Made by a program: the position numbers and the translations under genes
Origin: Aureococcus anophagefferens
Taxonomy: Eukaryota > Sar > Pelagophyceae > Pelagomonadales > Pelagomonadaceae
Direction of reading: 5' to 3'
Length of the DNA stretch: 64,000 nt
NCBI RefSeq assembly: GCF_000186865.1
Contig: NW_008705565.1
Location: 1,103,083-1,167,082 of the forward strand
Shown here: positions 10,971 to 51,326 of the stretch, one piece after another
Position numbering within the stretch: position 1 is the stretch's first letter
Layout of the letters: every line of letters starts with the position of its first letter
The notes under the pieces: model-generated
The model's database searches: none
Seen by the model: only the letters and a program-made list of their open reading frames with translations
What the model was told of the DNA's origin: nothing

Positions 10971-13900
10971 ATGCGCGTGCTCGTGGCCGTCGCGCTCGCG
11001 CGACTGGGGGCGTCCCAGACCTGCGACGTCCTCAGCGAGTCCTGCCTCATCTCCTGCGACGGCGACCACGTGAGCTGCGACTCGTTCCTCTTCGGTGGGG
11101 ATTGCGTGTGCGATCCCGGTAAGTTCCGACTTTGCCGCCGACGGTAAAACCAGCGTCTTCGTAGGCTACCCCTGCTTCTGCGCCGCGACGCACGAGTGCT
11201 ACGCGACGTCCTTCTGCCCGACGCCGAACCCGACGCCGCAGCCGACGCCCCATCCGACGTTCGCGCCCGTGACGTCCGAGCAGCACTGCGTCCCGGACGT
11301 GGAGGAATGCACCTTCTACTGCGACGGCGACGGCCGCGTCTGCGACAACAACATCTTCTCTGGCTCCTTCATGTGCGTCTGCGACACCGACGAGGGCTAC
11401 GACTGCTTCTGCGAGGACGGGAACTGCGCGATCCGGCGCCGCGGCGATCTTCGAGAGACTTGGACAGCCGTCATTGTTCGTAGGCTACCAGAACGGGTTC
11501 TGCCCCATGTCCGCGCAGACGCCGCGGCCGACGCCCTATCCGACCTTCGCGCCCGTCACGCCCGAGCAGCACTGCGTCGAGGACACGGAGGAGTGCTCGC
11601 TCTGGTGCGACGGCGAGGGACGCATCTGCGACTCGTTCCTCTTCGGCGGCCGCTGCGTCTGCGACGTCGACGAGGGCTACGATTGTTATTGCGAGGATGG
11701 CAACTGCTCGTGCGCCGGTGTCGTCGCACGCTCGCCGAGAAACTCGGAGACCTCCGCGTTTTCGCAGGCTACAAGAACGGCCACTGCCCCATGTCCGCGC
11801 AGACGCCGAACCCGACGCCGCACCCGACGTACGCGCCCGTCTTCCCCGAGTTCCACTGCATCGAGGACACGGAGGAGTGCTCCCTGTGGTGCGACGGCGA
11901 CCACCGCGAGTGCGACTCCTTCCTCTTCGGCGGCCGCTGCGTCGGCGAGGAGGGCTACGACTGCTTCTGCGAGGACGGCAACTACTACGCGGGCGGGTCG
12001 TGCCCCTCCGCGGCGCAGACGCCCATGCCGACGCCGCACCCGACGCCGGCCCCCGCGCCCGCGACGCACCAGTGCCGCGTCGACACGGAGGAGTGCTGGG
12101 TGTCCTGCGACGGCGAGAACCGGGGCTGCTCCGTCTTCGACGGCGTCTGCGAGTGCGACGAGGACCACCCGTGCTTCTGCGACGACGGCAACTGCTACGC
12201 GGGCACGTCCTGCCCGACGGCGTCGACGGACCACGGCGGCATGAACGTCATCGGCGACATGGTCCTCGAGGGCGTCACGGAGCTCGGCGCGTCGACCTAT
12301 GCGTCCGTCTGTGCCGAATGCAAATCTTCAACTCGAATTCAATGTGAGCGAACGCGACCGTTTCGACGCAACCTCTTCGGCTTTGCTTCGAGAACTCGAC
12401 GAGAGCAATCGATTCGTCCAAAATCAGCCGAATCGACTTCGATTTGACCGAGCTAGAGAATTCTGAAGTTTGGTCAGGACCACCCAAACCAGTGGTTGAA
12501 TTCGGCACAGGCCTCCGTCCTCCAGACCGCGCTCGCGGCCGTCGCGGGCCACGACGACGCGTCCGAGATCTCCTTCACCTTCCGCAGCTCCGACACGCAG
12601 CTCCTCGTGCTCTTCACGATCACGGGCTTCTACCACTACGACGACGCCGAGGCCGTCGCGGACCTCGCGGCGTCGACCGCGCCCGAGGACGTCACGAGCG
12701 CGATCGCCGCGGCGGTCGCGGACGACGACGGCGGCGCGGCGGCCGCGTGGGCCGCCGCGTCGGCCGTCGTCTACGAGAACGTCCAGGTCGCCCACTTCAC
12801 GCCGGCGCCCGTGCCCGGGCCCCAGCACTGCCTCGTGGACACGGAGGAGTGCTTCTTCGGGTGCGACGGCGAGGGCCGGTCGTGCAACGTCTGGGACGGC
12901 GTCTGCGAGTGCGACGTCGACGACGGTTATACTTGTTTTTGCGGCGACGGCAACTGCTACCAGGGCGAGGCCTGCCCGGCGGAGACGCTGCCGACGTACG
13001 CGCCCGTCCTCGAGGCGCGCGACTGCCTCCCGGACACGGAGGAGTGCTGGTTCTCCTGCGAGGGCGAGCACCGCGAGTGCGACATTTTAGGGGGCGGCGT
13101 CTGCGTCGGCGAGGAGGGCTACGACTGCTTCTGCGCCGACGGGAACTACTACGCGGGCGAGGCGTGCCCCTTCGACACGCCGTGGCCGACGCCCGTGCCC
13201 GAGACGTGCGAGGAGGCGCCGGGCGACAAGTGCCTCCTGTACTGCGGCGACCTCTTCGACACGATGCACATGTCCTGCGAGGACTCGCGCTGCGTCTGCG
13301 ACCCGGGCTACCCCTGCTTCTGCAGCGAGGGCGAGATCTACGACTGCTTCGCGGAGACGTGCGGCCGGACGTCGCCGCCGACGTCGTCCGTCGACTACAG
13401 CACGGTGTCGTCGGAGACGGGCGTCAAGGTCACGCACAACAACGTCGGGGGCATGATCCTGGCCTGCATCGGCGGCCTCGCCTGCTTCTGCTGCTGCTCG
13501 AGCTGCTTCCAGATGCTCATCCGCACGTGCCGCCGGTCCCTGGGCCACAAGAAGCAGAAGAAGGCCCACCTCGGCTTCTGGGCCGTGCTCAACGGCACGC
13601 TCGTGCTCTGCTGCGCCTGCGTCGCCCTCTACCCGACGGAGCCCGAGGTCTGGTTCGGCGCGGAGCACATCTGGATCGAGGAGACGAACGTCGACTGGGT
13701 CGACTGGCTCGACGTCGACATGACGATGACCGTCGCGGGCTACCTCGACGTGACCATCGTCGACCACAACTACCTCTGGGCCGTGGACTTCGACGGGGGC
13801 CTCCAGTTCTCCGTGGAGACGGAGGACGGCTTCGAGCTCGCGACGGTCAACGTCGACCCGTTCGAGATCCACGCGGGCGACACGAAGGAGATCCGCGTCG

Positions 13901-14526
13901 AGGTCGTCGCGAAGCACAACGTCGACGTCGAGTCCATATCGAACCTCGCGGCGCTGGGCTGGGGCTGCTTCGACGACGATTTGAACGAGATCAATTTAGT
14001 TATAAGGGGCTCGGTGCACGTCGTCATCGGCTTCTACGAGTACGACAACGTCGGCGAGCTCGACGGCCTCGTCGTCCCCATCGGCTGCTTCTCCGAGGAC
14101 GACGCCGACTTCTACAACGTCTACGAGGGGTCCACGGGCCTCCTGGGCTCCCTCAACTCGGGCGAGGTCGTCGCGGTCTTCGCGGCCGCGGGCTACGTGC
14201 TGTTCCTCGGTCTGTGGATCTACGTCAAGCACATGGCCACCGTCGCCGCGGGGGGCGAGGACGAGACGGAGGAGGACCGCCAGGTCGAGATGAGCGACGG
14301 CTTCGCGAAGCGGAAGACCCAGTTCGCGGGCTCCGCGGGCCGCGCCGCGCCGCGGCGCGCGTCGGGCTTCGCGAACTTCACCTACGGCGCCGCGCGCCGC
14401 GCGTCGGCGCTCTTCGGCGTCGAGAGCCGCGACTCCATCGGCGACCCCTACGGAGGCCGGTCCTCGGAGGTCGAAGGCACGAGCCCCATGCACACCCAGA
14501 AGGCCAAGCCCAAGGCCGACGAGTGA
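10971..14526 (+). CDS. Cys-rich repeat membrane protein, paralogue 1 (5 exons, one introner)
   Basis: Exons by reading frame are 10971-11118, 11165-11425, 11484-11705, 11768-12300 and 12511-14526, giving about 1059 residues. A signal peptide (MRVLVAVALARLGASQ) is followed by many ~45-residue units of the type C.VDTEECW.SCDGE..C, C.CD.D.PCFCDDGNCYAG, CP, joined by Pro/Thr linkers (TPNPTPQPTPHP). Near the end of the repeats is CGRTSPPTSSVDYS, then membrane segment MILACIGGLACFCCCSSCFQ, a second at AVLNGTLVLCCACVALYP, a beta-rich lumenal or extracellular domain (EPEVWFGAEHIWIEE, VAGYLDVTIVDHNYLWAV) and a last segment AAAGYVLFLGLWIYV before a basic tail. Introns 2, 3 and 4 are GC-AG and restore the repeat sequence exactly. 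The family is not recognised. A homologue lies at 21220-24231. A surface or endomembrane role is likely. Confidence 0.85.
12301..12510 (+). mobile_element. Introner element copy 1, acting as intron 4 (GC-AG, 210 bp)
   Basis: The 8-bp target copies are GCGTCCGT (12301-12308) and GCCTCCGT (12511-12518). Perfect 11-bp terminal inverted repeats CTGTGCCGAAT / ATTCGGCACAG follow. The family core TCGTCCAAAATCAGCCGA is at 12414-12431, sense to the gene. Splicing GC(target) to CAG(element end) joins TAT to GCC TCC GTC in frame. Confidence 0.93.
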
Positions 14527-17581: not shown

Positions 17582-19237
17582 TTACTGCATCGGGATGAGC
17601 CCCCCCGCGGCGGCGCCGGGGGCGGCGTCCTCCGCGGGCGCGGGCGCGGCGGCGACGGCCTCGACGACGTCGCCCGTCGCGGCCTGGACGAGGTCCCGGA
17701 GCGTCTCCTTGGACACGACGCTGGACTCGTCGGGCAGCGTCGAGTTCATGCCGCTCGCCGTCGACTGCTCGTCGCGCGCCTCGAGCCACCAGTCCGTCTC
17801 GACCTTGTTCACGTAGGCCTCGCGCGCGTCCGCGTCGAAGAGCGCCGCGGTCTCCCGAAGGTTCGTACTGAGCACGGGCGTGTGGGGCCGCGCCGTCGCC
17901 TGGGCGTCGGCGCGCTGGGCCGCCATGGCGCGCTGGTAGTCGCGCCCGAGGCTCAGCCGCTCCGTGTTCTCGATGGCCTCCGCCGGCGTCTCCGGCGGGC
18001 CGAGCTGGAGCACGTCGTCGAGCGTGAGGAGGCAGTAGAGCAGGTTCTCGACGGCGGCGGCGCAGCGCTCGTGGACCGCCGGGTCCACGCGGAGCGCGAG
18101 GAAGGGGCTCACGGAGAGGCCCGCGGACGGCGGCGGCCGCTGCGCGAGCTGCGGCGTCGTCGGCCGCAGGCGCCCGAGGTCGTCGTCCTCGCCCGAGTGG
18201 ACCGTGCCGTCGCCGTCGAGGCGGAAGAGGGGCGCCGGCGACGGCGGCGCCGAGGGGTCCGGCGGCGGCACGGCCGACGGCGGCCGCGCGCGGTCCGATA
18301 GCGGCGCCGCGGACGCCGCGGACGGCGCCGCGGCCGCGGGCGCGGGCGCCGCGGAGGCGAGGGACGAGGCGCTCGGCCGCTCCGCGGCGGGCGCCCTCCC
18401 CGGGCTCTCGACGCGGTCCGCGCCGACGATCGCGCCGAGCAGGATGTCGTCGAGCGGCAGCTCGAGGCGCCTGCGTGGACATCAAATCTTGGACCCGACT
18501 TCAATGTGCGCGTATGCGACCGTTTCGACGCAGGGCTTTCTGCTGTGCTTCGAGAACTCGATGAGAGCCATCGATTCGTCCAAAAATCAGCCGAATCGAC
18601 TTCGATGTGGCCGAGCTAGAGAGTTCCGAAGTTTGGCGGGGACCCCCGAACCGGCGGTTGAGTTCCACGCGGCGAGGCGCCGCGCCGCGCGCACGGTCTC
18701 GAAGAGCGCGTCGGCGATCGTCGGCCGCGCCAGCTCGACGATCGTGAAGAGCTCGCCGCCGATGTCGGCGACGACCTTCGTCGCGGTCCGCGCGCAGCAG
18801 TCGTGCGCGGTGACGGCGCACGCGCGGAGGAGGTAGCACGCGTCCGTCTCCGACAGGCGGTAGTCGCTGCTCGGCGGCAGCGACAGGCGGTCGCGCACGC
18901 TCCGGAAGGTCTCGAGCGCGTGGCAGATGCCGCCGACGAAGCGCTCGCCCTCGAAGCGCGCGAAGTCGCAGAGCGCGTGCTTCCTCGTCTCCGCGTCGAG
19001 CTGCGCGCGCGGGTCGTCGGGCCGGTGCCAGCCGCTGGAGACCCGGACGTAGCGGAAGGTCTCGTCGTCGCTGCCCCGGCGCATCCAGTGCCACGAGTCG
19101 GGGCCGCAGCGCAGCAGCCGGTTCGGCCGCCCGTCGGCGTAGCGCGGCGGGATCTCGAACTCGAGGCGCCGCAGGCGCTCGAGCTCCTCGGCGCTCCGCG
19201 TCACCGGGCCCATGAGCTTCTCGAGGTGGACGCTCAT
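17582..19237 (-). CDS. Unrecognised protein, two exons split by an introner
   Basis: The exons are 19237-18681 and 18470-17582 (481 residues). The N-terminal exon is globular (FRYVRVSSGWHRPDD, CYLLRACAVTAHDCCARTAT). The junction reads AARRLELPLDDILLGAIVGA across the splice. A long Ala/Pro/Ser linker follows, then a helical region (AAVENLLYCLLTLDDVLQLG, PETPAEAIENTERLSLGRDY) and a low-complexity Ala tail. No known domain is seen. The frame is restored exactly by removing the 210-bp element, which supports it being a live gene. Confidence 0.75.
18471..18680 (-). mobile_element. Introner element copy 2 (GC-AG intron, antisense)
   Basis: The 8-bp target GCGCCTCG (gene strand) is perfect on both sides: plus strand 18673-18680 and 18463-18470. 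Inverted ends are CCGCGTGGAAC / GTCCACGCAG with mismatches. The core is at 18576-18594 on the plus strand, opposite to the gene, so here the element splices in its reverse orientation. Length is 210 bp, as in copy 1. Confidence 0.93.
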
Positions 19238-21219: not shown

Positions 21220-24200
21220 CTAGAAGTCCGTGTTGGGCTTCGGGAACATGTCGTCGAAGCCCCCGAAGTCGTCGTCGTCGCCGCCGCCCCGGCTCTTCCG
21301 CGGGTAGTCCTTCGACTGGCTCATCTTGAACGCGTGCTTCTGCTTGCTGTGCGTCGCGCTCATGGGGTTGACGCCCTCGAGCGCGGAGTCGCTCCGTTGG
21401 AACCCCCGCGCTTCGGACATCTCGTAGCCCGCCATGGGATTGTTCCCCGCGAAGCTCGAGTCGCGCTCGCCGTAGCCCGCGGCGCCGCTGACGCCCGCGC
21501 CGCCCTGGAGCTGGGCCTCGGCGCGCATCTTCACGCCCGCCATCGGGTTCGCGCCGGCGACCGTCGACTCGCTCTTGCCGTAGCCCGCGGCTTTGCTGAC
21601 GTTGTAGGACTCGCTGTCCCGCGCGCGATTCGCGCCCATGGGGTTGCTGCCGCCGACGACGCTCCCGCGCGCGTCGAAGCCCGCGTCCTCGCCGACGTTG
21701 TAGTCCTGCGCGCCGCGCGCCCGCGCCTTCGCCATGGGCGATTCGGCCCCGAACGTCGACCCGCGGCCGCCGGCGAAGCCGTCCGCGCCGCCGAGCTCGG
21801 GCTCGTCGTCCGCGCCCCGCGCGACCATGACGACGCGCTTCACGTAGCAGTAGACGACGAGGAGCAGCACGTAAGCCAGCGCCCCGAAGAGCGCGACGAC
21901 CTCGCCGCCGTTCATGTTCCCGAGCAGCGTGTCCTCGGGCTCGTAGACGATGTAGAAGTCGTCGTCGCCGTCGTCGTCGGAGAAGCACCCGACGGGCACG
22001 ACCATGTTGTCGAGGTCGCCGATGTTGTCGTACGAATAAAAACCGATGTCCGCGTGGATGTTCCCCCGCACGACGATGTCGATCTCGCCCGCGTCGTCGA
22101 AGCACGACATGCCCAGGTCCCAGAGCGACGACGCGCCGTCCCACGACGACTCGTGCTTCGCGATGACCTCGACGCGGATCTTCTTCTCGTCGCCCGGGTC
22201 GATCTTGAAGGGGTCGACGACGACGATGCCGAGCTCGTAGCCGTCGACGGTCTCCACGGAGAACTCGAGACCGTCGGAGAAGTAGACGCTCCAGAGGAAG
22301 TTGTGGTCGATGAGCGTGACGTCGAGGTAGCCCGCGACCGTCATCTGCGCGTCCCAGACGGACACGTCCTCGAGCCAGATCTCCGACGCGCCGAACCAGA
22401 CCTCGGGCTCCGAGGGGTACATGGCGGCGCAGGTCACGCACAACAAGGTCGCCAGGTTGAAGGACAGCCAGAACCCCAGATGGGCCTTTTTTTGCTTCTT
22501 CTTCGTCATCGACTTGCGGACCGTCCGGAAGCACATCTGGCTGCACGTGCCGCAGCAGCAGCACAGCGACAGGCAGCCGATGGCCGCCAGGATCATGCCG
22601 CCGACGTTCGTGTGGCCCATGGTCACGGCCGTCTCCGAGCTGTGCGCGCTGTAGTCGACGGACGACGTCGGCGGCGACGTCCGGCCGCACGTCTCCGCGA
22701 AACAACCAAAATCCTCGCCGCAGAAGCACGGATAGCCCGCGTCGCAGACGCAGCGCGAGTCCTCGCAGGAGTAGTGGTCCTCCTCCGTCGCCGACCCGCA
22801 GTAGAGCATGCACGTCTCGCCCGGCGCCTCGGCGCACGTCTCCGGCACGGGCGTCGGCCACGGCGTGTCGTAGGGGCACGCGCTGAGGTCGTAGTAGTCG
22901 CCGTCGCCGCAGTAGCAGTCGAAGCCGTCCTCGCCGACGCAGACGCCGGCGAGGTAGTCGCACGTCGAATGCTCGCCGTCGCAGCCGCTGAGCAGCGAGC
23001 ACGTCCGCGCGTCCGCCTGGCAATTCCGCGACGCGACGGCCGGCGCGAAGGTCGGGAGCGTGAAGCTCGGGCAGGAGCTCGCCGCGTGGCAGTTGCCGTC
23101 GCCGCAGAAGCACGGGTGGTCCTCGTCGCATTCGCACTTCTGCTCGAGGACGTCGCAGCTCCGGTACGCGCCGTCGCAGCTCATGAAGCACTCCTCCGTG
23201 TCCACCAGGCACTGGTTGTTGAGGAAGACGGGCGCGATGGACGGCGCGGGCGTCGTCGGCGCGGGCGTCGGGCAGTGGGGGCCCGCGAAGCAGGCCATCT
23301 GCTCCTCGCAGAAGCAGGGTGTTTCCTCCTCGCAGTAGCACTTGTAGTCGCCCGAGATGATGTTGTTGCTGCAGTAGGCGTTCTCCGCGTCGCAGTAGAA
23401 CGTGCAGTCCTCGACGTAGAGGTCGCACATGTGGTGGTTCGGCGCGCCCGTCGGCGTCAGCGTCGACGGCGACGGCGTCGGCTGGGGCGTCGGCGTCGGC
23501 GTCGGCGCGGGCGTCGGGCAGAAGGGCCCCGCGACGCACGACATCGTCTCGGGGCAAAAACAGGGGAATTCTTCCTCACAATGGCACTCCCAATCCCATC
23601 CGCAGTCGGCGTTCTCCGCGTTGCAGTACAGCGTGCAGCTCTCGACGTAGTCCTCGCACCCGTGCGCGTTCGGCGCCGGCGTCGGCGCCGGGCCGTCCGA
23701 CGTCGGGTACTTGGTCGGGTCGCGCGTCGGCTCCGGCGTCGGCTCCGGCGTCGGGCAGAAGTCCGCCGCGGTGCACGCCATGAGCGACGAGCAGAAGCAG
23801 GGAAATTCCTCGTCGCAGTGGCACATCCAGTCCGCGTCCGAGAACACGTTGTTGCTGCACCAGGAATTCTCCGCGTCGCAGTACACCGTGCAGTCCTCGA
23901 CGTAGTCCTCGCACATGTGCTTGTTCGGCGCCCACGTCGGCGCCGCCGTCGAGGGCGCGGGCGTCGGCGCGGGCGTCGGCCGCGGCGTCGGCGCGGGCGT
24001 CGGGCAGTAGGGCTCGACGTGGCACGACATCGTCTCGGAGCAGAAGCAGGGGAACTCCTCCTCGCAGTAGCACTTGTAGTCGCCCGAGAAGATGTTGTTG
24101 CTGCAGTAGCTGTTCTCCGCGTTGCAGTAGAACGTGCAGTCCTCGACGTAGACGTCGCAGGTCGCCGGGATGCCGTCGCTCTGGGCCCGGACGACGGCGA

Positions 24201-24231
24201 CGGCCGTCGCGAGGGCGATGGAGCGGAGCAT
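21220..24231 (-). CDS. Cys-rich repeat membrane protein, paralogue 2 (intronless)
   Basis: This is one uninterrupted exon of 1003 residues. A signal peptide (MLRSIALATAVAVVRAQ) precedes at least six Cys-rich units (DVYVEDCTFYCNAEN, CYCEEEFPCFC), Pro-Thr linkers (CPTPAPTPRPTPAP), and the same CGRTSPPTSSVDYS block, membrane segments and C-terminal domain (EPEVWFGASEIWLED, VAGYLDVTLIDHNFLWSV) as the gene at 10971. It adds a tail with five S/NPM-centred repeats (SPMAKA, NPMGAN, NPMAGV, NPMAGY, NPMSAT) spaced about 30-40 residues apart. It lacks every intron of paralogue 1, which makes it a useful outgroup for dating them. Function unknown; likely a surface or endomembrane glycoprotein. Confidence 0.88.
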   Translation of the reverse strand: MLRSIALATAVAVVRAQSDGIPATCDVYVEDCTFYCNAENSYCSNNIFSGDYKCYCEEEFPCFCSETMSCHVEPYCPTPAPTPRPTPAPTPAPSTAAPTWAPNKHMCEDYVEDCTVYCDAENSWCSNNVFSDADWMCHCDEEFPCFCSSLMACTAADFCPTPEPTPEPTRDPTKYPTSDGPAPTPAPNAHGCEDYVESCTLYCNAENADCGWDWECHCEEEFPCFCPETMSCVAGPFCPTPAPTPTPTPQPTPSPSTLTPTGAPNHHMCDLYVEDCTFYCDAENAYCSNNIISGDYKCYCEEETPCFCEEQMACFAGPHCPTPAPTTPAPSIAPVFLNNQCLVDTEECFMSCDGAYRSCDVLEQKCECDEDHPCFCGDGNCHAASSCPSFTLPTFAPAVASRNCQADARTCSLLSGCDGEHSTCDYLAGVCVGEDGFDCYCGDGDYYDLSACPYDTPWPTPVPETCAEAPGETCMLYCGSATEEDHYSCEDSRCVCDAGYPCFCGEDFGCFAETCGRTSPPTSSVDYSAHSSETAVTMGHTNVGGMILAAIGCLSLCCCCGTCSQMCFRTVRKSMTKKKQKKAHLGFWLSFNLATLLCVTCAAMYPSEPEVWFGASEIWLEDVSVWDAQMTVAGYLDVTLIDHNFLWSVYFSDGLEFSVETVDGYELGIVVVDPFKIDPGDEKKIRVEVIAKHESSWDGASSLWDLGMSCFDDAGEIDIVVRGNIHADIGFYSYDNIGDLDNMVVPVGCFSDDDGDDDFYIVYEPEDTLLGNMNGGEVVALFGALAYVLLLVVYCYVKRVVMVARGADDEPELGGADGFAGGRGSTFGAESPMAKARARGAQDYNVGEDAGFDARGSVVGGSNPMGANRARDSESYNVSKAAGYGKSESTVAGANPMAGVKMRAEAQLQGGAGVSGAAGYGERDSSFAGNNPMAGYEMSEARGFQRSDSALEGVNPMSATHSKQKHAFKMSQSKDYPRKSRGGGDDDDFGGFDDMFPKPNTDF

Positions 24232-33473: not shown

Positions 33474-35033
33474 ATGATGCTCACGTCGCGCTCCGCGTCG
33501 CGCTCCCGGCGCCGCGATGCGGAGCACTGGGGCGCCCCGCCGAACTCGCCGCCCCCGCCGCCGGCGCCGGACGTCGAAGACGTCGCCGAGGCGCGGAGCT
33601 CGGAGCGGGAGGAGGACCGCACGGTCGAGGCCGTGGACATCGCGTTGGCGGCGGCGTGCGCCGTGGCGTCGGCGGAGCCGCGGCCGCGCATCGCCCTGCG
33701 CCTGCGGACGTCGGCGGGCGTCGAGGTCTGGGTGCTCTCGACGGAGGACGGCGCGGCGGCGGTGCACCGCGCGGCCGGCGGCGACGCGGACGCGGACGTC
33801 GCGGCGGCGCTGGAGTGCTCCCTCGGCACGTTCCTCCGCCTCGCGTCGAACCGCCTGAAGATGTCGCGGGCCGTGCTCTCGGGCCTCGCGAAGGTGACGC
33901 GCGCCGCGTCCCCCGGAGCGAAGGGACACCGACGCGCGCGCGCCGCCCGCAGGTCTCGGGCCACCGGCGGTCGCTGGAGCGCTGGGGCCCCGTGCTCCGC
34001 GAGGCGAAGCGCGCCGTCGCGGCGTCCCTGGGCCTCCGGCGCCCCTCCGCGGACGCGCGCGAGGCCGCGTTCGCGTCGGCCGCCGCGCGCGAGACCGTCG
34101 GCGCGGCCGCGCTCGCGAACGAGGAGCGCGCGGGCCCGCTCTACCGGCGCGGCGGCTGGCGCGCGGCCGTGAGCGCCATCAAGGGCGAGGCCGCCGGCGG
34201 CCGCTGGCGCCTGCGGGTCCAGGTGTCGCCGGGGCCCGACGCGCGCGTGCCGTCGCGCGCAGTGTGGATTCCAACCACTGGTTTGGGGGGTCCCCACCAA
34301 ACTTCAGAACTCTCTATCTCGATCAAATCGACGTCGATTCGGCTGATTTTTGGACGAATCGATTGCTCTCGTCGAGTTCTCGAAGCACGGCGGAAAGCCC
34401 CTCGTCGAAATTGTCGATTACGCGCACATTGAAGTCGGGTTGAAGATTTGGAATCCACACAGGTCGCGCGACGTCCGCGCGGACCTCGCGGCCGCGTCCG
34501 AGGCCGCGTGCGCCGTCGAGCTCCGGCGCGAGCTCGCCACGCTCCTCGGCGGCGTCGCGCGCGCCTTGGGCCTCGAGGCGGACGACCGCATCGAGCGGGC
34601 GCTGCCCGCGGCGGCGGCGTTCTCGGGCGGGCGCGTGCTCCGCGTGGCCGTCTCCGAGGCCGACGGCGCGGTGCGCGTGGAGGTCCTCGCGGCCGCGCCC
34701 GGCGCGTCGCGCGGCGCCGTCGCGCGGTCGCTGCTGGACCTCGCGGACTGCTACGGCGACCTGACCAAGGCCCTCGACTTCGTCGTCGGCGAGGTCGCCA
34801 AGGCCTGGACGCAGCTCACGCGGCCGGAGACGCGGGACCGCGCGGCGCTCGGCGACGTCGCGAACGCGCGGAGCGACTCGGAGCGGCAGGTCGACGACTA
34901 CCACCAGGGCAAGTGGGTCCCCGAGGCGGAGCGGAAGAAGCACCGGAAGACGGCCCTGGAACGCGCGTCCCTCGCGAAGCTCCACCGCGGCCGGCCCGCC
35001 TACCTCAAGGCCCTCGTCGCGTCGGCCTTCTAG
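33474..35033 (+). CDS. SCP2-like domain protein, three exons, one introner
   Basis: The exons are 33474-33893, 33953-34251 and 34463-35033 (429 residues). After a Ser/Arg start and acidic linker, residues ~75-165 read GVEVWVLSTEDGAAAVHRAA, then SLGTFLRLASNRLKMSRAVL followed by SGLAKVSGHRRSL. This is the pattern of an SCP-2 sterol-carrier fold (a beta edge and hydrophobic pocket helix leading to a SG.L...G turn). The 59-bp GT-AG intron 1 falls exactly in that turn. The C-terminal half is helical (RSLLDLADCYGDLTKALDFV) with a basic end. The lipid-binding role is tentative. The intact frame across both introns supports expression. Confidence 0.72.
34252..34462 (+). mobile_element. Introner element copy 3 (GT-AG intron, antisense)
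   Basis: Target copies GTCGCGCG are perfect at 34252-34259 and 34463-34470. Inverted ends are CAGTGTGGATTCCAA and TTGGAATCCACACAG. The core is on the minus strand (34339-34357), so the element is reversed relative to the gene. Splicing joins CC to GTCGCGCGAC in frame. Length is 211 bp. Confidence 0.94.
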
Positions 35034-38760: not shown

Positions 38761-39050
38761 TATTATTATGGGTGACTCCTAGATCAGCCCAGCCAACCCA
38801 AACCAAGTAGCAGGAGCGGTCCCCGGACGCCGGTTCCTGGCGGACTGAGCGTCACGATTAAGCTGGGAGGGCCCTAGGAGCAGATCAGAGTGAGACTGCG
38901 TTACGGGTATCCTAGGCGTATCCTGGCTCCTCTGCTCCCCCGCCGCGGCCGGAAAGGCGGAGCGGGGACTGCGAAGCCAGGCCGGGGAATGAGAGTGTGC
39001 ACGCCGCAGCGCGCAGGGAGGCGGGCGGGTGCCACGGCACCGCGCCGGGG
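38761..39050. other. Intergenic left of a broken introner
   Basis: No coding exon is recognised although one would be expected here for the downstream exon. Short complementary blocks occur (CTCCTAGATCA near 38777 and CTAGGAGCAGATCA near 38873). Sequence abruptly becomes introner-like at about 39051. Confidence 0.4.
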
Positions 39051-39211
39051 ATATGCGACCGTTTCGACGCGAGATCTTCTGCTGTGCTTCGAGAACTCGA
39101 CAAGAGCAATCGATTCGTCCAAAAATCAGCCGAATCGACGTCGATTTGGCCGAGATAGAGAGTTCTGAAGTTGGTTGGGATAACCCAGCTCACTGTTTGA
39201 TTTCCACACAG
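39051..39211 (+). mobile_element. Introner element copy 4, 5'-truncated
   Basis: From ATATGCGACCGTTTCGACGC onward it matches copy 2. The core is at 39115-39133, and it ends TTTCCACACAG directly before an open exon. The expected left inverted end and the first copy of an 8-bp target (GTTCGCGG) are not found upstream. Confidence 0.82.
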
Positions 39212-49869: not shown

Positions 49870-51326
49870 ATGTTCTTCGGTGGTCCGGGAGGCATCCCGT
49901 TCGGCATGGACGACAGCGGCATGCCCGGGGGCATGGGGGGCATGGGCCGCCAGCGCGAGCCCGCGGACACGACGGCGCTCTACGAGGTGCTCGGCGGGGC
50001 GGGACAAGGGTGATTCAACGTCGCTTCAACGTGAGTGTTCCGCGCGCGCGCGTTTCGGAAACAGCACCCACGCGTCGAGAGCGCTCCGAGAGATGATCGC
50101 TCGTCCAAAAATCAGCCGAAACGAGCGGAAAACGGCCGAGAGAGGAGCCTCTGACGTTGGGAATGTCGCACCCTTTTCCCGCCCAGGTGCTCGGCATCCA
50201 GAAGTCGGCGTCGGCGACGGAGATCAAGAAGGCGTTCCGCAAGCTGGCCCTGAAGAAGCACCCCGACAAGGGCGGCGACCCCGAGGAGTTCAAGAAGATC
50301 CAGGCGGCCTACGAGGTCCTCGGCGACGAGGAGAAGCGCGAGAAGTACGACAAGTACGGCCTCGAGGGCCTCGAGGCCGGCGACATGCCCGAGGGCGGCA
50401 TGGACGTCTTCGACCTCTTCTTCGGCGGCGGCCGGCGGCGCCGCGGCGGCGGCGGCGGCAAGCGCAAGGCCGAGGACACGGTCTACCCGCTCAAGGTGTC
50501 CCTCGAAGACCTCTACAACGGCAAGACGGCCAAGCTCGCGATCACGCGCAGCGTGATGAAGGGCGAGCCCAAGAAGTGCACGACCTGCAAGGGCCAGGGC
50601 GTCGTCGTCCAGATGCGCCAGATCGGCCCGGGCATGGTCCAGCAGCTCCAGACGCGCTGCCCCGACTGCCCGCCGGGCAGCGGCGGCTACCGCGTGAACA
50701 TGAAGAAGGAGCGCCAGGTCCTCGAGGTCAACGTCGACAAGGGCGCGTCCCACAACACGAAGCTCCGCTTCTCCGGCATGGGCAACGAGTCGCCCAACGC
50801 CGAGCCCGGCGACGTCGTCTTCGTGCTCCAGCAGAAGGAGCACGCGTCGTTCAAGCGCAAGGGCGCGGACCTCCTCATCCAGAAGGACATCTCCCTGTCG
50901 GAAGCCCTCTGCGGCTTCAAGTTCGTCGTCCGCCAGCTCGACGGCCGCCAGCTCCTCATCCAGTCCAAGCCGGGCCAGATCGTCCGCCCCGAGGTCCAGC
51001 AGGGCGTGCCCTACGTCATGTGCGTCGACGGCGAGGGCATGCCCAAGCACGGCAACCCCTTCGACAAGGGGCGCCTCTTCGTGCTCTTCACCATCATCTT
51101 CCCGCCGAACTACTCCCTCGGCGAGGACCAGGTCGCGCTGCTCAAGCAGGCGCTGCCCAAGGCGCTCAACGACGAGCCCTACGACGAGAACGAGATCGAG
51201 GACGCCATTCTCGAGGAGATCAACCTCGACGAGCTCGGCAAGGGCCAGGGGGCCACGGGCGAGGAGGAGGAGGACGACGACGAGGCCGGCGGCAACGGCC
51301 AGCGCGTCCAGTGCGCCCAGTCCTAG
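49870..51326 (+). CDS. Type I DnaJ co-chaperone with half the zinc domain and a CaaX end
   Basis: The exons are 49870-49986 and 50187-51326 (418 residues). The start is [22 protein letters not shown]. The J domain spans about 35-100 and is split by an introner right after TALYE (ALYE joined to [17 protein letters not shown]). HPD lies in [10 protein letters not shown] Gly-rich linker and client domain follow. Only two zinc motifs are present: CTTCKGQG and [10 protein letters not shown]. These correspond to motifs 2 and 3 (zinc site II) of Ydj1, while motifs 1 and 4 are absent. The acidic C-terminus ends CAQS, a farnesylation box as in cytosolic DNAJA proteins. Partner is cytosolic Hsp70. Confidence 0.93.
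49987..50186 (+). mobile_element. Introner element copy 5, divergent subfamily (GT-AG, 200 bp)
   Basis: Target GTGCTCGG is perfect at 49987-49994 and 50187-50194. Inverted ends of ~18 bp are CGGGGCGGGACAAGGGTG and CACCCTTTTCCCGCCCAG. The core TCGTCCAAAAATCAGCCGA (50101-50119) is identical to other copies although the rest has diverged. Sense orientation. Confidence 0.94.

Follow-up and report, generated by a model that had tools for sequence, protein, structure and literature searches.

The window analysed here is a stretch of 64,000 nucleotides from the brown-tide alga Aureococcus anophagefferens. On its forward strand it harbours, at positions 10971 to 14526, a gene for which a script-built model gives five exons, four introns and a Cys-rich repeat protein of 1059 amino acids. 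Three of the introns are short: one of 46 nt with GT-AG borders (11119-11164) and two with GC-AG borders, of 58 nt (11426-11483) and 62 nt (11706-11767). Their borders are inferred, having been set such that translation continues through the repeated Cys-rich module. The 58- and 62-nt introns occupy the same position in adjacent modules of the repeat and are not obviously introners.

The fourth intron is the subject of this study. It is predicted to span 210 nt (12301-12510, forward strand), begins with GC and ends with CAG. Most of it is made up by a nonautonomous element, an introner, of 202 bp (12309-12510, forward strand), which has matches elsewhere in the genome at 92-100% identity. On the left the element is preceded by an 8-bp target copy (GCGTCCGT, 12301-12308), the source of the GC at the predicted 5' splice site. 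On the right it is followed by the second target copy (GCCTCCGT, 12511-12518), which would be retained in the exon; the two copies agree at 7 of 8 positions, the duplication with one mismatch that the initial annotation had described. The perfect inverted ends of 11 bp reported there are likewise present: the left terminal inverted repeat (CTGTGCCGAAT, 12309-12319) and the right one (ATTCGGCACAG, 12500-12510) are identical at 11/11 bp and, over a longer stretch, at 14/15. The right repeat contains the acceptor CAG, and at its inner edge lies a branch-site-like TTGAA (12496-12500), a putative branch site. The annotation had further equated the mobile element with the intron. Its 210-bp intron borders hold, but element and intron do not coincide, because the 210-nt intron consists of the 202-bp element plus one 8-bp target copy. 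When 12301-12510 is excised, TAT is joined to GCC TCC GTC and the frame is open across the junction, in agreement with the claim that excision restores the frame; when the segment is left in place, stop codons enter the host frame.

A single distant paralogue was identified for the exon at the focal junction, and it is uninterrupted at the same point (33% identity, E 5.8e-4). Splicing of the focal copy and the existence of an empty allele are predicted, with this paralogue and the evidence from the family as stand-ins. Among the 7991 top word-sharing candidates that were scored, the spliced host protein had one match, A. anophagefferens SO694_00059149 (48% identity over 67% of the query). This protein is encoded on the same contig, 9 kb from the focal intron, where residues 1-720 are found at 100% and residues 719-925 at 99% identity, which identifies the 49-Mb genome as that of A. 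anophagefferens. This 48%-identical paralogue occupies about 21223-24231, some 7 kb from the host gene and on the opposite strand, and its annotated protein has no match to the introner-bearing domain of the host. For the focal junction itself none of 7366 candidates among public proteins reached E <= 10, a Pfam search with the 150 amino acids around it matched no family, and in viral contigs 25 stretches fitted a pattern, but no relative of the exon peptide was encoded in them.

The genome does contain the additional copies with these ends that the initial annotation expected. In the similarity search 40 of 1706 first-look candidates were scored, and these 40 matches, the focal copy among them, aligned at 92-100% identity. 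A 15-bp end motif occurs 152 times (63 + 89) and its commoner variant 774 times (380 + 394). The reversed control patterns gave 0 + 0 in both cases, and the end motif is therefore no chance pattern. The family numbers hundreds of copies. For a detailed comparison we sampled 68 loci, eight through the similarity search and 60 through 100 end-motif places listed of the 152. These loci yielded 103 BLAST pieces, of which 24, many of them fragments, were discarded because their duplication fell below 7/8, and 4 for short flanks. This leaves 75 copies with a good duplication, including the focal one, so that highly similar sequence is found at many unrelated intron positions. Terminal inverted repeats and a duplication of constant length hold across the sample. 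In the 68 copies whose strand is clear (see below) the predicted intron length is 211 nt in 55, 212 nt in five and 210 nt in four.

Four more copies or relatives lie in the window. The second copy (34252-34462, forward strand; element 34260-34462) is inserted in the other orientation and has predicted borders GT...CAG; the third (18471-18680, reverse strand; element 18471-18672) has GC...CAG. Both have an 8/8 duplication, as does a distant relative (49987-50186, forward strand) with a 192-bp element and borders GT...CAG, which is 81% similar over a short stretch (46 bits). In a further copy (39007-39211, forward strand) the acceptor end is intact, and its left end and duplication (5/8) could not be made out.

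The initial annotation derived the GC donor from the duplicated target and the CAG acceptor from the end of the element, a pattern that recurs in the sampled copies of the family. The coding strand was called from codon usage, with a model that had been trained on 105 long open frames and gave a clear answer for 68 of the 75 copies. In all 68 the target copy starts with GY on the coding strand (45 GC, 23 GT) and the downstream end of the element reads CAG. GY has a background frequency of 0.198 in the coding sequence nearby, and on the opposite strand the target copy starts with GY in 22/68. Particularly informative are the 46 copies with GY on one strand only, since in every one of them (46/46) this is the coding strand. 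With a bare sign rule for the strand, applied to all 75 copies, GY is found on the called strand in 73, and both exceptions belong to the seven copies with an unclear call. GY on the non-coding strand is also above background (22/68, p 0.014), so a mild target preference is possible. A transposase, however, cannot know which strand is coding, so the rule indicates selection that acts once a copy has inserted. It is this restriction to one strand which separates selection from a preference of the transposase.

The same rule bears on the question whether the element itself could carry both splice sites, with part of the duplication retained in the mRNA. Such a case has been published for the same genus, according to the part of Gozashti et al. 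(2022, Fig. 2F; PMC9860276) that deals with it, and the element end CTGTG does hold an internal GT. Against it, in all 68 clearly stranded copies the target copy opens precisely with GY on the coding strand, and a donor at the internal GT would lengthen the focal mRNA by 10 nt and thereby break the frame. On these two grounds we ruled out a donor inside the element, and we regard this explanation as highly improbable for the present family.

Because both ends of the element start out alike, the donor-side end serves as an internal control for the acceptor-side end, and the near-identical ends thus allow selection on the acceptor side to be examined within each copy. A change of the base that provides the A of the acceptor AG is seen in none of 68 acceptor-side ends vs 10 of 68 donor-side ends (two-sided p 0.002), and at the remaining 14 end positions the two sides differ by at most 2. 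Mismatches summed over all 15 end positions amount to 39 on the donor side and 26 on the acceptor side, with a clear difference at position 2 alone (10 vs 0). We therefore claim a constraint for the acceptor AG only and not for the whole end, and the idea that the donor-side end generally decays faster was dropped for the same totals. A count of matches over the whole end gives a weak signal and was set aside, the acceptor side being better in 24 copies, the donor side in 15 and both equal in 29. Most copies were found through at least one intact end, a condition which treats both sides alike. In the ten copies in which neither end equals the search motif the A is changed twice on the donor side and never on the acceptor side. 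The three further window copies with an 8/8 duplication likewise have a changed donor-side end and an intact acceptor AG.

Open frames flank both sides of the spliced junctions in the sampled copies. We scanned 20 spliced host proteins against Pfam, chosen by eye in two batches of 10, and in 10/20 a domain above the cut-off spans the junction, so that domains are uninterrupted at several junctions. Nine of these belong to the first batch (kinase, GTPase, cyclophilin, M41 peptidase, UCH, aminotransferase, sulfatase, GH3 and HAD); in the tenth protein of this batch a WW domain ends at the junction. The second batch consisted of less obvious proteins, and here only one junction in ten was spanned, by a RING finger model (residues 45-95) that only just exceeded the cut-off. 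Two proteins had matches across the junction below the cut-off (sulfotransferase, NACHT), one had a match beside the junction (SAM), and six, the focal protein among them, were without a family. For the aminotransferase host a public protein of 528 amino acids is identical at 518/528 positions and runs without a gap across the GC-AG junction. It comes from a 2746-bp contig and may represent either a transcript after splicing or an allele that lacks the insertion, as both fit. Among the 120 aminotransferase relatives listed of 5753 found, 110 align without interruption in the 8 residues next to the junction and 10 have a gap there.

A plain MITE insertion that breaks the gene, is not spliced and has GY...AG borders by chance would explain why the element in place puts stop codons into the focal frame. 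It does not account for GY on the coding strand in 68/68 copies against a background of 0.198, nor for an AG that is unchanged on the acceptor side and changed in 10/68 on the other end. Frames that are open on both sides of the spliced junctions, Pfam domains across half of the chosen junctions and the gapless public protein across one of them also speak against it, and we consider it very unlikely.

Relative to the gene the elements of the 68 clearly stranded copies are inserted in both orientations (35 vs 33). Copying at the RNA level, by which a spliceosomal intron is reverse-spliced into other transcripts and then reverse-transcribed into the genome, has been proposed for fungal introner-like elements and would place highly similar introns at many new positions as seen here, but it predicts one orientation relative to the gene, is strongly disfavoured by the even split, has the cut-and-paste signatures of inverted ends and 8-bp duplication against it, and is hardly credible for this family.

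The interpretation of 12301-12510 as an introner is thus supported. We are highly confident that it is a copy of a nonautonomous cut-and-paste transposon that lies in an exon and is predicted to be spliced out together with one target copy. The course of events that best explains the data is as follows. A MITE-like nonautonomous DNA transposon of 202-203 bp, probably mobilised by a transposase encoded elsewhere, inserted into an exon and duplicated 8 bp of the target. Both near-identical ends read ...CACAG outward, and since they are alike the downstream end offers a 3' splice site in either orientation, with a branch-site-like TTGAA or TTGAT about 12 nt upstream of the acceptor as the presumable branch site. 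The first dinucleotide of the upstream target copy, GC or GT, would serve as the 5' splice site. With one target copy and the element spliced out, the mRNA would equal the exon before insertion and the protein would be unchanged. Insertions into exons would then be retained only at targets whose coding strand starts with GY.

These donor counts also touch on an older question. Iwata and Gotoh (2011, PMC3033335) give for A. anophagefferens, in the portion of the paper on this species, 39.6% GC-AG introns together with a canonical U1 5' end, and call the origin of these introns an enigma. The donor is GC in 45 of the 68 copies, an observed share of 0.66, while the background share of GC among GY dinucleotides is 0.784 (p 0.018), and GT is therefore favoured only mildly. 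Taking the background frequencies in coding sequence into account (GC 0.155, GT 0.043), a GC site is used as donor at about 0.54 of the rate of a GT site. In this sample donor positions +3 to +8 show little beyond base composition. Because introners draw their donors from GC-rich exons, an excess of GC-AG introns would follow, provided that the spliceosome tolerates GC, and the use of GC at about half the rate of GT may help to explain the excess. A stronger version, to which we give about even credence, is that the spliceosome accepts GC nearly like GT and needs little beyond GY, and that the GC-AG excess is mainly a by-product of introners. The two putative short GC-AG introns of the focal gene suggest that tolerance of GC extends beyond the introner family. 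A search for U1 RNA with Rfam had no match in this genome, but as the control genomes gave no match either, this negative carries no weight. In the excerpts of the introner, Aureococcus and GC-AG literature that we examined the GC-AG excess is nowhere attributed to introners. However, where one paper (PMC7789003) mentions how frequent non-canonical introns are in Aureococcus and Micromonas, it refers to several works, with Huff et al. at that place, and the link between introners and GC-AG introns may well already be in print. What the counts add is that, for abundant GC-AG introns, the strength with which the spliceosome prefers GT over GC becomes measurable.

Introner elements of A. anophagefferens were described by Huff, Zilberman and Roy (2016, Nature), whose work is considered here through other papers, and since they have been in print since 2016 the focal copy is not new in kind. 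A passage of PMC10228655 credits Huff et al. (2016) with describing co-opted splice sites and transposition as DNA in either orientation. The present copies, from the same species, have both features in common with these introners as far as sequence can tell (predicted co-opted donors with GY at the target start in 68/68, insertion in either orientation in 35 and 33 of 68), their predicted intron length agrees with the roughly 210 bp of these introners, and as far as this secondary account goes no difference was established. According to the relevant part of Gozashti et al. (2022, Fig. 2B; PMC9860276), introners of Symbiodinium microadriaticum, an unrelated host, likewise take the 3' splice site from the element and the 5' site from the duplication and have terminal inverted repeats, but their target duplications are 4 bp instead of 8 bp. 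Another Aureococcus isolate has, in the portion of the same paper around Fig. 2F, introners with an 8-bp duplication that carry both splice sites and add 12 nt to the mRNA, whereas the focal family is predicted to add none. With MITEs, the nonautonomous transposons with terminal inverted repeats, the family shares short length, inverted ends, a duplication of fixed length and many copies; unlike plain MITEs it is predicted to work as an intron. The focal copy is therefore one ordinary member of a large family of intron-making transposons that is already in the literature. It makes a clean textbook example, the family is a natural test bench, and the donor-use ratio, with GC at about half of GT, is one incremental point beyond the known introners.

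We also looked for a source of transposase. No element with the ends of the family and a transposase gene was found by domain searches and inspection of the end motifs, and end motifs about 745 bp apart at one locus (L076) belong to separate copies or fragments. Family searches found no MULE or IS1595 domain in the genome. Searches for KDZ, hAT dimer and P-type RNase H C domains gave no match in the genome, but none in the control genomes either, and so do not demonstrate that these domains are absent. A P-element-like RNase H transposase domain had a single match in the genome (E 1.4e-9). The P-element superfamily makes an 8-bp duplication. The reading frame of this P-like domain contains seven TAG and one TAA in about 1.1 kb of otherwise readable sequence. 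On its one readable flank no introner end was found at up to 3 mismatches. Some 54 bp that resemble the introner core (81%, E 1.4e-10) and have no recognisable ends are found about 0.4 kb downstream of the domain; they may be a remnant of either a source element or an inserted introner. About 5 kb downstream of the domain lies a partial copy of another introner subfamily. The locus neither supports nor excludes a P-type source and is the sole lead worth following.

Two irregular types of copies were seen in the sample. One copy (L035) has normal ends around an inverted middle part (about 54-144), and its duplication is not recognisable. Five others (L036, which is the aminotransferase host, L015, L025, L034 and L040) combine a CTGTGCCG-type end with a TGTGG-type end, and look as if two subfamilies had recombined or converted.
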